Assembly (NCBI GenBank): GCA_002724635.1 | Contig: PBPM01000051.1 | Coordinates: 1 to 62,325, forward strand | Source of the DNA: Rhodospirillaceae bacterium | GTDB taxonomy: Bacteria > Pseudomonadota > Alphaproteobacteria > UBA6615 | Length of the DNA: 62,325 bases | Direction: 5' to 3' | Shown here: in pieces, positions 11,499 through 23,462 of the stretch | How positions within the stretch are numbered: position 1 is the first letter of the stretch | Layout of the letters: the number at the start of each line of letters is the position of its first letter | Notes under the pieces: generated by a model | What the model saw: only the letters and a program-made list of their open reading frames with translations | Told to the model about the DNA's origin: nothing | The model's database searches: none | Program-made: the position numbers and the translations under genes

Positions 11499-12179
11499 TT
11501 ATTCCAACGGCGCGCTCGGGAACTCGTCTGGCCAGTTGTCCAGCAGGTGCTGCAGATAGGCTCTCAGTGCGTCCGAGCTCACCTGCGAGCCGGCACCGAC
11601 CGCGTTCGCGCCGGCCGTCGGGTCCGGGTCGAGGTGCAGCGAGTCATGCATCCGGTTGCGCATGTTGCGGAACGCGCACACTGTCGTCAGCTCGACGATC
11701 TCCGCCTCGCTAAAGACCTTAGATCCCTGCCGGAAGACGTCCTCGCGGTTCTTCGCCGTGTTCAGCGTTACGTGCTCCGTCCACAACAGCGTCATCTTCT
11801 CGCGATAGCTCAGCAGGTCGGAATTCATATAATCGTCTCCCTGAATGACCTCGAGCTCTTCGTCCGATACCCCCGCCACTCGACCGAGCGACACGTTATG
11901 ATGGGTTCAGTAAAAGCAGTCGTTGATGGTGCTCGTCTTGATGTCGACGAGGGTCTTGAGCTTGGCGGGCAGGATGCTGCCGGCACCGTTGCGCTGCATG
12001 GCTGCAATCAGGGGCGCCAGCCAGCGCCCGACCAGTGGTACATGGGCTATCAGCTTGAGCGAGTTGATCGTCGACGCCTTCTCGCCAAACAGGATGTCAT
12101 TCGCGGTATAATTGGTCTCAATATCGGCTTTCAGGTGATCGGGTGCGTTGGTCGCGTCGATTAGGTTGACCCGGGCCAT
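11499..12179 (-). CDS. Carboxymuconolactone decarboxylase/AhpD-like protein, probable selenoprotein (CxxU)
   Basis: One frame runs from the ATG at 12179 (AAGGAAC site) to 11499, 227 codons, broken only by TGA at 11909-11907 (codon 91). The paralogue at 22360-23043 has the same length and reads INGCAYCYAHN where this gene reads INDCFY-TGA-THHN, so TGA replaces the second active-site cysteine; Cys88 and the following histidine are kept. Thirteen bases after TGA an 8-bp stem (GUGUCGCUC side) closes a GGUC loop, fitting bacterial SECIS features. Downstream codons keep the family sequence to the LLDNWPDEF end. If selenocysteine is inserted, a CxxU thiol/selenol peroxidase or reductase is likely. 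The alternative is a plain nonsense mutation, which cannot be excluded because other genes here are decayed. Confidence 0.68.
11871..11909 (-). promoter_or_regulatory. Candidate bacterial SECIS element after the in-frame TGA
   Basis: In the mRNA sense (minus strand), bases 11893-11886 pair with 11881-11874 (five Watson-Crick and three G-U pairs) around the four-base loop GGUC at 11885-11882. The loop begins with GG, and lies 21 bases after the TGA; the stem starts 13 bases after it. Spacing and loop resemble the E. coli fdhF element (family knowledge). No energy calculation was made. Confidence 0.55.
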
Positions 12180-12207
12180 GTGTTGTTCCTTTTCGGCGTT
12201 TGGTACG

Positions 12208-12975: not shown

Positions 12976-13746
12976 CTATATCATCACCTCGCCGCCGCAC
13001 ACGGCAAGGGTCTGGCCGGAAATGAAAGAGATCGCGGGCGATGCTAGGAATATCGCCATCCCGATCAGGTCGTCGGGTGTGCCAGCGCGCTTGACCAGCC
13101 GCTTGTTCTGAATGAAATCGTGCAGATTGTCATTCATACTCGCATGTTTGACCTCGGTCGTCGTGTAGCCGGGCATAACTGTGTTCACGTTGATATTGTC
13201 GTCGCTGAGCTCGCGGGCCATCACCCGTGTCATGCCGATGATCGCGGATTTTGACGTCACGTAATGCATGAAGCCGGGTACGCCCTGAGGGACGGTGCCC
13301 GACGAGATGTTGATGATCCGGCCTTGGCCGGCGGCCTTCATTGGGTGCGTGACCGCGCTGGCACAGAGATAGGAACCGGTGATGTTGACGTGGATCACCC
13401 TGTTCCACTCCTCGAAGGGAATCTCGAAGAACGGCCGCTGGGGCAGGGCGGCAAAGATCGCCGCATTGTTGATTAGCACGTCGATCCGGCCGTAGGCGGT
13501 CACTGCGGCATCGACCATAGCGTTGACGGAATCCGGGTCGCCCACGTCGGTTTCGACCGCGAGAGACCGGCCGCCCAAGGCCTCGATCTCGGCGGCGACG
13601 CTCTTGAGATTGTCGCCGTTGATCTCGGCGAGCACAGGCGTCGCGCCCTCCCTGGCGAAGGCTAGCGCGTATTCGCGGCCCAGACCCTGGCCCGCGCCCG
13701 TGATGATAACGACGCGGTTGCTGACGTCGAACCGATTCTCTTCCAT
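12976..13746 (-). CDS. Short-chain dehydrogenase/reductase
   Basis: 256-aa classical SDR with TGAGQGLGREYA for NAD(P) binding, NNAA, and the catalytic Ser and Tyr/Lys in ISSGTVPQG and HYVTSKSA. Complete at both ends. Located between a frameshifted VOC gene and the hypothetical gene at 12208 in a same-strand run, so it probably takes part in the same degradative unit. Specific substrate unknown. Confidence 0.88.
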   Translation of the reverse strand: MEENRFDVSNRVVIITGAGQGLGREYALAFAREGATPVLAEINGDNLKSVAAEIEALGGRSLAVETDVGDPDSVNAMVDAAVTAYGRIDVLINNAAIFAALPQRPFFEIPFEEWNRVIHVNITGSYLCASAVTHPMKAAGQGRIINISSGTVPQGVPGFMHYVTSKSAIIGMTRVMARELSDDNINVNTVMPGYTTTEVKHASMNDNLHDFIQNKRLVKRAGTPDDLIGMAIFLASPAISFISGQTLAVCGGEVMI

Positions 13747-13748
13747 GC

Positions 13749-14159
13749 CATGTCCATTCTGTGTTGGGGGCTTGTTTCGCGCGGGTGTTGGCGACTTCGA
13801 TCAGGTTGCGGTCGGGATCGCAAAAATACACGGAAATGAGCGGGTCTGTCGCCCCGGTGCGTGGGACGGGCACCTGAATGATGGCGATGCCGCGCGCCTC
13901 GAGATGCCCGATGACGGCGTCGATGGGGATGTTTGTCAGGAAACAGAGATCGCTGCTCCCGGGGATGGGATGCAGTGCCTTCGGCTCGAAATCGCGCCCT
14001 CGCGGCGTGCAGGTTGATCTTCTGGTCGCCGAACCGCAGTGCGAAGCGTCCGTCCGCGAATGTCTCGACCGTCATGCCCAGCACGTCGGTACAGAAGGCG
14101 CAGGTTTCCTCGATCGACGTGACAGTCAGCACCAGATGGCCCAGAGACCGGATCGTCAC
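13749..14159 (-). pseudogene. VOC (glyoxalase-fold) protein with a frameshift
   Basis: From the ATG at 14159 the sequence reads SLGHLVLTVTSIEETCAF and FALRFGDQKINLH, a typical VOC N-terminus. Near 13996-14000 the family sequence moves to another frame: RDFEPKALHPIPGSSD, then DAVIGHLEARGIAI and YFCDPDRNLIEVANTR. The second frame has no stop before the SDR start, so the C-terminus is also damaged. Either a decaying gene or sequencing indels. Its ATG overlaps the NRDE gene stop (ATGA). Confidence 0.72.
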
Positions 14160-14920
14160 TGGGCCGCCAGTGACAGGATCACATGCTCGAAGGGGGTATT
14201 GTCTGGGCGTCCCGGTGCAAACCGCCAGACCACATCCTCATCCGTGTGATCGACGGAGGGGAGGGCAACCAGCGTACTTGAGACGGTGCCGTATCCCCGG
14301 TCCGTCACGATGCACATGGTCTCACGCGGGTCCTCGTCGCTCGAATGCAGACGGGTCGCGAGCAGCGTTTCCCATGCCGACCAGTCGCCGGCGGCAACAT
14401 CGGGCTCAGCGGCGATGCGGAACTGCGGCAGGAAACGCCCGATCCGCGCGCTGTTCGTATCGTCGAGCTCGCGCGAGGTGATCATGTGCAGGCCCGGCGG
14501 TATCTCGAACGTCTCGACGACCGGCTGCTCGGTGCCTCGCACCCAGTAGGCGTCCCGGTTGTCGGCGATGATCAGGTTGAACGATCGATAGGCGTTGCCG
14601 TCGAGGTCGCCGATCGCCGCCGCTGCGGCGGCGGCATCCGAATGGTCCACCGCCTCGAGGACCAGTTCGCCGCGAGACCGTTTGTCGACCGTGGGGCCGA
14701 GCGATCCCTCGCGGTTCAGGATTGCGGCCGCCACCCCGTGATCGTTGACGGCGAGCCAGGTGCCGCCCGCCAGTTCGTCGAGCCCGCCGACCACATCGGG
14801 GCGGTCAGGCCAGTGGCGCGCAGGGGGGTGCCAGCCGCGGTCGGTCATCTCGTCGCGGTTGGCCGCGATCAGCAACGGCCAGCGATGTCCGGGACGACGA
14901 AGAATGACGAGCGTGCACAT
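14156..14920 (-). CDS. NRDE (TANGO2-like) family protein
   Basis: 254 aa beginning MCTLVIL and containing the family's AANRDE motif near residue 20 and GGTWLAVNDHGV at about residue 52. The second-position cysteine resembles an N-terminal nucleophile arrangement. Family function is not well established; the eukaryotic homologue TANGO2 is linked to heme and lipid handling. Complete, no lesions. It is divergent from the zeta-subunit gene at 15008. Confidence 0.88.
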   Translation of the reverse strand: MCTLVILRRPGHRWPLLIAANRDEMTDRGWHPPARHWPDRPDVVGGLDELAGGTWLAVNDHGVAAAILNREGSLGPTVDKRSRGELVLEAVDHSDAAAAAAAIGDLDGNAYRSFNLIIADNRDAYWVRGTEQPVVETFEIPPGLHMITSRELDDTNSARIGRFLPQFRIAAEPDVAAGDWSAWETLLATRLHSSDEDPRETMCIVTDRGYGTVSSTLVALPSVDHTDEDVVWRFAPGRPDNTPFEHVILSLAAQ

Positions 14921-15386: not shown

Positions 15387-15986
15387 ATGGATGATGGGGC
15401 ACAGGTCGCCGGACATTCCTGTCTGGTGCCGCCTGTCGACGTTGCGGACTTCTCGCCGCCGTTCCGCAATTCCGCCGAGCGGGTGTCGGGCCGCGTCGGT
15501 ATGGTCGCCAACAATGTGCACGCCATGGCCAACTCGCCGGAACTCGGCGCCACCATGCGGCAGTTCCTCGACGATGTGTGGGATCAGGGCGATCTGCCCA
15601 AGCCTCTCAAGGCGCTGATCCGCAATAAAGTCTCCAACATTAATGCCTGTCTCTACTGCTCGGCCCACCAGATGCGCGTCATGCGCAGCCAAGGTGTCGA
15701 ACAGAAGAAGATCGACAACATTTACGACTTCCGTACACACCCGGCCTTCTCCGACAAGGAGCGTGCTATCCTGACCTACAGCGAGGCGCTGACGGTCGAT
15801 GTGGGTGCCATATCGGAAGACGTCATCGCGGACTTTATGGCGCACACCACCGCCCAGGAGCGCACGGAAGTCACAATCGTCGCGGCGTCTATGGGGCTGA
15901 TCAATCGCCTGAATGACGGGCTACGGGTCCCCCTCGAGGAATCGATGCTCGAGATCGCGCCGGATATTTCCTTCCAAGAGCGCTGA
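15387..15986 (+). CDS. Carboxymuconolactone decarboxylase/AhpD-like protein (CxxC)
   Basis: 199 aa with the redox motif CLYC (Cys88 and Cys91) and the following His94 in NINACLYCSAHQ, as in AhpD-like peroxidase-related proteins. The C-terminal half has the helical pattern RAILTYSEALTVD and TIVAASMGLINRLNDGL shared with the two other members in this window. It forms a tight run with an alpha/beta hydrolase (9 bp downstream) and a DUF1330 gene. Likely a disulfide reductase or peroxidase, or a lyase on a muconolactone-like compound. Confidence 0.85.
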   Translation: MDDGAQVAGHSCLVPPVDVADFSPPFRNSAERVSGRVGMVANNVHAMANSPELGATMRQFLDDVWDQGDLPKPLKALIRNKVSNINACLYCSAHQMRVMRSQGVEQKKIDNIYDFRTHPAFSDKERAILTYSEALTVDVGAISEDVIADFMAHTTAQERTEVTIVAASMGLINRLNDGLRVPLEESMLEIAPDISFQER

Positions 15987-22359: not shown

Positions 22360-23043
22360 TTACGCCGCATCCGCCGCGGCTTCGGCGCGCGCATTCAGGT
22401 CGTCGAAATCTTCGGGCCAGTTGTCCACGAGCCAGCGCAGATAGGTCTTGATGTTCGCAGGGTCGATACGGACTGATCCACGGATCTTGTCTACCTCGGG
22501 TTGCGCCTCGATGGGCAGCTTCAGGGAATCGTTGAAGCGGTTGATCATATTGAACATAGAACAGATCAGCGTCAGTTCAATTATCTCGGCGGAACTGAAC
22601 TGCGCTTCCACGCGCTCAAATACGTCGTCTCGGGCCGCTGCCGTGTTCTTAGTCATGTGTTCGGCCCACTCGATCGCGGCGCGCTCGCGTGCATCGAATA
22701 GGTCCGAGATCAGGTAGTCGTCGGACGAAATCGCGATCACTTGGTCTTGGGTGATGCCCGCCGCCTCGCCGAGCGCGGTGTTATGGGCGTAGCAATACGC
22801 GCAGCCGTTTATGTGGCTAGTCTTGATAATGACCATCTCCTTCAGCTTGGACGACAGGTGCACGCCGGCCCATTCGCGCTGGTTCGCGGCCTGGAATGGC
22901 AGGTAGAGCATCGCCAGATGAGGGGCGTGGGCCATCGTACGATAGGCATTCGGGACCCGGCCAACTAGCCCGCTGACGGCATCATAAAAGTGCTTGAGTT
23001 CGTCCGGCGCATTCTCCGGATTGATGTTCGGTACCCGTGACAT
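22360..23043 (-). CDS. Carboxymuconolactone decarboxylase/AhpD-like protein (CxxC)
   Basis: 227 aa from the ATG at 23043, with GGGAG six bases before it. The redox pair is CAYC (Cys81 and Cys84) with His87 in INGCAYCYAHN. The length and layout match the TGA-containing paralogue at 11499-12179 almost exactly, ending in LVDNWPEDF. It therefore serves as the cysteine counterpart of that gene. Possible peroxidase-type or thiol-disulfide activity. Confidence 0.86.
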   Translation of the reverse strand: MSRVPNINPENAPDELKHFYDAVSGLVGRVPNAYRTMAHAPHLAMLYLPFQAANQREWAGVHLSSKLKEMVIIKTSHINGCAYCYAHNTALGEAAGITQDQVIAISSDDYLISDLFDARERAAIEWAEHMTKNTAAARDDVFERVEAQFSSAEIIELTLICSMFNMINRFNDSLKLPIEAQPEVDKIRGSVRIDPANIKTYLRWLVDNWPEDFDDLNARAEAAADAA

Positions 23044-23462
23044 CGTTTGTACTCCCTGTTTGTTCCCCGCCACAGTGTACCCATGGCAGTAGCCAATGCA
23101 CCATGGATCGATCACACAGCCTATCAAAGCCGGTATGAACATCTATTTTCACGGCCTCGTCACGCCCAGCCAGAATCGGAGTATCCCAGCATGGTCACGA
23201 TCGACATCGACTTCCAGATGTTCGGCAGCGGCTGGCCCGCAATGATCAAGAAGCATGGCGCACCAGTCGATGTGTTTGAGGCGAAACTCTGAAACTCTAG
23301 AGTACCGACCTCTTCATCTGCACGCTGGTACGTGTGCTCTTACGCGACGCCCGCGCGAACGCGGGGCGACCTACAAGTGGGCCCCAAGGTTCCGCAGGAA
23401 TAGACGCGATCGGCGCCGCATCCTAGACTGCCGGCGTTCCCTCCGGATATGAGGTGCGATCC
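23044..23462 (+). other. Intergenic region without a recognised gene
   Basis: About 420 bases between two genes transcribed away from each other. An open frame ends at 23292 on the plus strand (VTIDIDFQMFGSGWPAM at its end), but it lacks a ribosome site and known motifs. It may be a gene fragment. Promoters for both flanking genes must lie here, but no clear -35/-10 pair is evident. Confidence 0.4.

Follow-up and report, generated by a model that had tools for sequence, protein, structure and literature searches.

A window of 62,325 nucleotides (contig PBPM01000051.1, positions 1 to 62,325 of the forward strand, from the Rhodospirillaceae bacterium assembly GCA_002724635.1) carries a gene for an AhpD/CMD-like protein whose reading frame contains a single in-frame TGA. 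Our results confirm this observation and support its reading as a selenoprotein gene; taken as a whole, they are with high confidence best explained by a bacterial selenoprotein with the AhpD fold and a C88-x-x-U91 site. The original prediction had described a 227-codon frame, which corresponds to 226 residues plus a stop; the strand, which it had not given, is minus. It had also located the TGA at the second cysteine of the CxxC redox motif, and this is indeed codon 91 in C-F-Y-U. With the TGA read as U, the peptide around the redox site is IKTSTINDCFYUTHHNVSLGRVAG. Cys88 and His94, the cysteine and histidine that had been described as kept, show no variation when 24 selected relatives are aligned, and the family assignment also holds, since the Pfam CMD domain PF02627 is found above its gathering cut-off (28.8 vs 23 bits). 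The ribosome site that had been noted is plausible and lies within AAAAGGAACAACAC, the stretch directly 5' of the ATG.

Note that the open frame by itself is weak evidence. In the window, 180 TGAs are flanked on each side by 40 or more open codons, and 25 of them, including that of codon 91, have a coding-like guanine plus cytosine (GC) content by codon position on both sides. The case for a selenoprotein rests on three other things: the TGA common to relatives, the hairpin and the selection. Another of these 25 TGAs, at 15984, terminates the CLYC gene that begins at 15387.

A scan of public genomes with the window protein gave 27 pattern stretches, 8 of which encode a relative, and the codon-91 TGA is present in all 8. 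Five of these relatives (L022-L026) are 64-89% identical to the window protein and three (L027-L029) are 41-47% identical, in independent assemblies with the same TGA. All are metagenome-assembled genome records labelled Rhodospirillales, Rhodospirillaceae, Alphaproteobacteria or just bacterium; L022, L023 and L024 match contigs in genomes G020, G019 and G021, respectively, and are to be counted once. The window itself is contig C38 of genome G000, an assembly of 137 contigs and 2.95 Mb for which completeness is given as 100% and contamination as 6.15%. Among the 24 genomes of the family, which were also those covered by the order-level search, five of the seven that belong to the window's genus (G000, G019, G020, G021 and G023) contain a member of the window clade, each with one TGA. 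When the search was widened to 385 genomes of the class, relatives at E <= 1e-30 turned up in 5, each of which belongs to the window's family.

Moreover, purifying selection acts after the TGA. The ratio of nonsynonymous to synonymous change (dN/dS; Nei-Gojobori, 21 pairs from 7 full-length members) was 0.034-0.261 3' of the TGA and 0.025-0.399 5' of it, the ratios being rough for the wider pairs, in which dS is near 1 (up to about 1.1). As expected if an RNA element is present there, synonymous change in the 15 codons after the UGA was the lowest of 15 blocks among five genus members (0.21), and the second lowest with seven members.

The 42 nucleotides after the UGA fold into a hairpin with its loop at nucleotides 22-25, which we predict to be a selenocysteine insertion sequence (SECIS). 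The rule given for bacterial SECIS elements comprises a loop of 3-9 nt, a stem of 4-16 bp, a spacing of 16-37 nt, a minimum free energy of -7.5 or lower and a G within the first two loop positions (PMC13188914). The window hairpin satisfies the whole rule, with a 4-nt loop that starts with G, a stem of 8 bp, 21 nt between the UGA and the loop, and -12.7 kcal/mol. To place this hairpin among related genes, 81 CMD rows (28 Sec, 53 Cys) were collected, and four Cys rows with a profile score below 90 were excluded, leaving 77 rows (28 Sec, 49 Cys). The number of genes with a folded hairpin at GGUC was 27 among the 28 Sec genes and 3 among the 49 Cys homologues, where synonymous codon draws give an expectation of 0.60 and 0.79, respectively; the draws used codon counts from 16 window genes for the rows of every genome. 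The 28th Sec gene, L072, has a different hairpin. In an earlier, smaller collection of 63 CMD genes (28 Sec, 35 Cys), GGT occupied the loop position in 27/28 Sec and 5/35 Cys genes, and an uninterrupted stem of at least 4 pairs surrounded it in 14 Sec and 0 Cys genes. Since Sec and Cys rows are related by descent, these hairpin counts and the codon counts that follow are not independent events.

The codons around the loop covary. The Leu98 codon is CTC whenever Arg CGA/CGG follows Gly99 (18/18) and CTT whenever Gln CAA follows (9/9), and the loop-closing pair is C-G or U-A in 27/27 Sec genes, compared to a standard pair in 5 of the 33 Cys genes with the same Leu-Gly. The peptide SLGQA is encoded by one identical DNA sequence in seven Sec genes, and that DNA occurs in none of the 14 Cys genes with the same peptide. 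Protein constraint cannot account for this difference between Sec and Cys genes that encode the same peptide. A genome-wide scan for TGA-N18-CTYGGTCRRG found 4 places, and none with a reversed-pattern control; in just one of these, the window gene, is the TGA flanked by long open stretches in both directions, the next best, on contig C103, having 33 codons after the TGA, and the scan thus yielded no additional gene.

In support of this, the machinery for selenocysteine is encoded in the window's own assembly: selA, selB, tRNA-Sec and selD were all found. The selA and selB genes are adjacent on C103. The tRNA-Sec (71.2 bits, cut-off 47, with ARAGORN concurring) is located where C103 and C64 end, and its orientation there suggests a single gene at a broken contig joint. 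On C64, the first half of the frame that contains selD looks NADH-dehydrogenase-like by eye, and the frame looks like an Ndh-SelD fusion, a kind of fusion mentioned in PMC2398784. The contig with the second selD, C88, may be foreign to the genome (GC 0.597; bin contamination 6.15%). Across the family, selB is above cut-off in 20/24 genomes. Among the matches of the family search, at least one Sec AhpD-like gene is present in 13 of the 24, and 12 of these 13 have selB above cut-off, as do 8 of the 11 genomes without a Sec AhpD-like match.

The original prediction had proposed looking for the sel genes, for a TGA shared by close relatives and for selection downstream of it, and had named as contrary outcomes the absence of selA/B/C/D, or close relatives with Cys together with lost conservation after the TGA. 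The sel genes are in the assembly, the TGA is shared at 8/8 loci and the dN/dS after it is low; neither contrary outcome was seen, and the selenoprotein proposed there is supported. The gene, the common TGA, the hairpin, the machinery and the selection together make it nearly certain that selenocysteine would be inserted at residue 91.

Several points weigh against this interpretation. Besides the rough ratios of the wider pairs, the window gene was not found in two of the seven genus genomes, G018 and G022, which yielded pieces of the adjacent partner gene only (39 residues in G018, cut by the contig end in G022). G019 has the window-type gene and no selB above cut-off (it is listed as 87% complete). 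The hairpin of the Sec row L027, at -6.5, is weaker than the -7.5 limit and is still among the 27, and 14/28 Sec rows lack four unbroken pairs around the loop, most having three pairs and then a mismatch. Finally, this is a draft assembly with 6.15% contamination, so that a foreign origin is conceivable for the sel genes, which lie on other contigs. This last worry is lessened by the presence of selB in 20/24 family genomes and by the similar GC, 0.618 (C103) and 0.639 (C64) in the stretches examined, compared to 0.623 for the window.

Features of the window and of related loci in the same genome (G000). Positions are those of the window unless a locus or contig is named.
Feature	Position	Strand	Remarks
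Selenoprotein gene, CMD/AhpD fold	12179..11499	minus	ATG at 12179, TAA at 11501-11499, 226 residues plus stop; MARVNLIDATNAPDHLK
In-frame TGA, codon 91	11909-11907	minus	second redox position of C88-F-Y-U91, predicted selenocysteine
Ribosome-binding site AAGGA	12187..12191	minus	7 nt 5' of the ATG, read from the letters
Bacterial SECIS hairpin (predicted)	11874..11893	minus	8-bp stem, 4-nt loop GGUC, -12.7 kcal/mol
Antisense open frame, 250 amino acids	11412-12164	plus	covers most of the Sec gene; a Sec-blind gene finder could call it instead
Operon partner, 244 amino acids	12208..12942	minus	28 bp upstream of the Sec gene
Short-chain dehydrogenase/reductase (SDR)	12976..13746	minus	PF13561, 195.8 bits; 33 bp upstream of the partner gene
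TANGO2-like protein	14156-14920	minus	PF05742, 94 bits; upstream of the SDR
Cys paralogue CAYC (row L004)	22360..23142	minus	Cys clade placed beside the Sec clade of the window gene; frame open
More distant Cys paralogue CLYC (row L064)	15387..15986	plus	frame open
NF041238-like Sec gene, CFYU-T	L071, G000:C15:198-326		165.3 of 175 bits, N-terminus outside the scanned part
NF041238-like Sec gene, CFYU-T	L073, G000:C78:36990-37124		judged by eye only
Sec CMD protein CSYU-GNVR	L088 (G000:C103:80560-100559), match G000:C103:89101-89325	minus	usual His absent; selA lies about 3.4 kb away
selD in a 772-amino-acid frame, with Cys	L089 2964-5282, G000:C64	minus	beside tRNA-Sec
Second selD, itself TGA-bearing (GGGUGCK)	L090 2016-3062, G000:C88	minus	

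A gene finder that treats TGA as a stop splits the window gene into two pieces. Upstream of it, the partner protein matches nothing in Pfam or NCBIfam at E <= 0.001, and its profile has no match among solved chains at E <= 1; its fold is predicted to be a tandem ferredoxin-like one, of the dimeric alpha+beta barrel type. The SDR gene adjoins the partner gene in L022, L023, L024 and L033 too, and the SDR is preceded by the TANGO2-like gene in the window, L022 and L024. Other arrangements were observed in the more distant loci. L025 (2853-5355) and L026 (2855-5358) have an operon-like row composed of the partner, a PcaC-like CMD gene (checked in L025), a Sec AhpD gene (CAYU) and another Sec AhpD gene (CNHU), and thus hold two selenoprotein genes in tandem. 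In L029 (1943-4636) the partner is flanked by two Sec AhpD genes on opposite strands, CAYU directly after the partner and CKYU on the other side.

The two Cys paralogues that had been reported in the window, CLYC at 15387 (plus) and CAYC at 22360 (minus), are real, with open frames and PF02627 above cut-off in both. PF02627 finds 15 CMD places in G000, and in four of them, namely the window gene, L071, L073 and L088, there is a TGA at the second redox Cys. The hairpin of L088, one of these Sec loci, differs from the GGUC type, and a thioredoxin-like gene (L088 8960-9448, minus) is located upstream of its CSYU gene. A further Sec clade, CNNU, is found in L077 (G020:C42) and L081 (G021:C49), two contigs that also carry the window-type gene, and its nearest Cys relatives are CHNC proteins. 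For the tree of the 77 CMD rows the redox column was masked; the Sec rows fall into four places in it, and well-supported branches force at least 4 changes; without three long-branch rows, one of them Sec (74 rows), the changes are 3. We also considered a single origin of all Sec forms, and a tree constrained to unite the two large Sec clades (25 rows) was rejected by the approximately unbiased test (p 9e-73), the tested group having been chosen after the tree was seen. According to these trees, the wider family has switched between Sec and Cys three to four times or more, counts that give no gain-versus-loss direction. In three of the four Sec places the SECIS loop is at the same codon, that of the conserved Gly of the LG motif.

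Regarding the mechanism, we propose that SelB and Sec-tRNA-Sec, recruited by the GGUC-loop hairpin, would insert selenocysteine at residue 91, whose selenol would occupy the place of Cys133 in the CxxC pair of AhpD. By analogy with AhpD, C88 would form a selenenylsulfide, to be reduced by a thioredoxin-type donor. As to its role, the protein would most likely reduce a peroxide or some other small electrophile, acting with the barrel partner and the SDR, and a selenol/thiol reductase of this general type is what we would favour, if by no wide measure. The proton relay of AhpD consists of a Glu at -15 and a His at +4 from the second redox residue (PMC3141380). In the window clade neither the Glu at -15 nor the His at +4 is present. 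The low pKa of a selenol would make relay-type activation less needed. However, the idea that loss of the relay Glu is tied to Sec was rejected, as the Glu is kept in 11/28 Sec and 29/49 Cys rows; with the relay Glu not linked to Sec, the pKa argument stays at what we infer, one more point on the opposing side.

Since the relay Glu and His are not in their usual AhpD places, a plain peroxidase role is not assured. The protein could be a selenoprotein and no peroxidase. As a selenol enzyme with the AhpD fold, it would then work with the barrel partner and the SDR on an organic substrate, for example by reductive dehalogenation, in the manner of Bmp8, or at a step in ring or lactone catabolism; we hold this to be a serious possibility, at somewhat longer than even odds. 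The debrominase Bmp8 (6OHI/6OHJ, with a C82A mutant among the Protein Data Bank titles) is a cysteine enzyme that acts on bromopyrroles. A more elaborate proposal joins two ideas: that the Sec AhpD-fold enzyme and the new ferredoxin-like-barrel protein form a lineage-specific module doing selenol chemistry on an organic, perhaps halogenated, substrate and not peroxide detoxification, and that the CMD fold is a Cys/Sec hot spot because the DNA for Leu-Gly-Arg/Gln, seven to nine codons past the redox site, can turn into a SECIS almost by synonymous changes alone. Taken jointly, this is speculative and we think it unlikely.

A selenium-free reading of UGA, either generally as another amino acid (e.g. 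Trp, table 4) or through leaky read-through, is very improbable. Open frame flanks the TGA in both directions, as such a reading would have it, but TGA is the stop codon of 9 of the 17 window genes examined, which indicates that UGA is a normal stop here and the genetic code unchanged; moreover, the TGA replaces a redox Cys and not a Trp, and the Sec machinery and the SECIS are present. A pseudogene or a sequencing error, in which a Cys codon was mutated or misread to TGA and the protein is dead or the base wrong, might be suspected in a draft assembly whose homologue L086 in G006 looks like such a case, but the same TGA in independent assemblies at 64-89% and 41-47% identity, the purifying selection past it and a hairpin beyond what synonymous drift explains make this scarcely credible for the window gene. 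In L086 (G006:C73:1-2300) the AhpD-like gene (848-1318, minus) keeps CAYC and its TGA is at a tryptophan site, a matter of decay or sequence error and not a Sec site.

With our results, CxxU AhpD-like selenoproteins can be assigned to a defined lineage of Alphaproteobacteria, one that has the Sec machinery as well as many paralogues with Cys. What goes beyond earlier knowledge is a SECIS written into synonymous sites, as seen in the matched Sec/Cys comparison, the repeated switching and the unnamed operon partner, and also a subfamily far under the tested NCBIfam cut-offs and the presence of four Sec CMD proteins in a single genome. Matched Sec and Cys enzymes of one genome offer a way to ask what selenium buys in the AhpD fold, and they are a natural test of a SECIS written into coding sequence, with one peptide, a hairpin in the Sec genes and none in the Cys genes.

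Selenoproteins of this kind have been known since 2005, when the Sargasso Sea data yielded 27 sequences of AhpD-like selenoproteins with CxxU and 4 of selenoproteins with a CMD domain (PMC1088965), followed in 2008 by AhpD-like 1 and 2 in the Global Ocean Sampling (GOS) data, with 299 and 70 sequences (PMC2398784); the original prediction was right that they are known from marine metagenomes. A 2006 paper describes the change from Cys to Sec in thiol oxidoreductases (PMC1794560), and the forms given in a 2026 review are AhpD-like (TIGR01926), CMD-like (PF02627), AhpD-related (NF041238) and distant AhpD (NF041047) (PMC13188914). The window protein scores below the cut-offs of TIGR01926 (peroxidase-related, AhpD-like; 37.6 vs 81.8 bits), NF041238 (AhpD_rel_CFYUT; 23 vs 175 bits) and its best NCBIfam match, NF053654 (GroundWater_YciW, a YciW-related (seleno)protein; 59 bits, cut-off 310). 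These profile scores set it apart as a distinct subfamily, though one of a known kind. The subfamily is not named in the titles returned by our literature searches, whose coverage left most subscription journals outside, and a search on selenoproteins of metagenome-assembled Rhodospirillales returned 0 papers.

With the AhpD-like selenoproteins of the Sargasso Sea and GOS (COG2128/TIGR01926) it shares the CxxU, the marine origin and a SECIS right after the UGA (PMC1088965, PMC2398784), and it differs in lying far under the TIGR01926 cut-off. NF041238, which is the 'hypothetical protein 1' of the Sargasso Sea (PMC13188914), has the C-F-Y-U-T motif in common with the window protein; however, the NF041238-like genes on C15 and C78 have His at +4 and the window protein at +3. 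Bmp8, which uses Cys, is 13-14% identical to it in a structural alignment. Finally, the window protein matches the AhpD of Mycobacterium tuberculosis and PA0269 (2O4D) in the AhpD fold and the CxxC pair, whereas in the window protein the second Cys is replaced by Sec, the relay Glu (-15) by Thr76 and the +4 His by Asn95, the conserved His94 being at +3.
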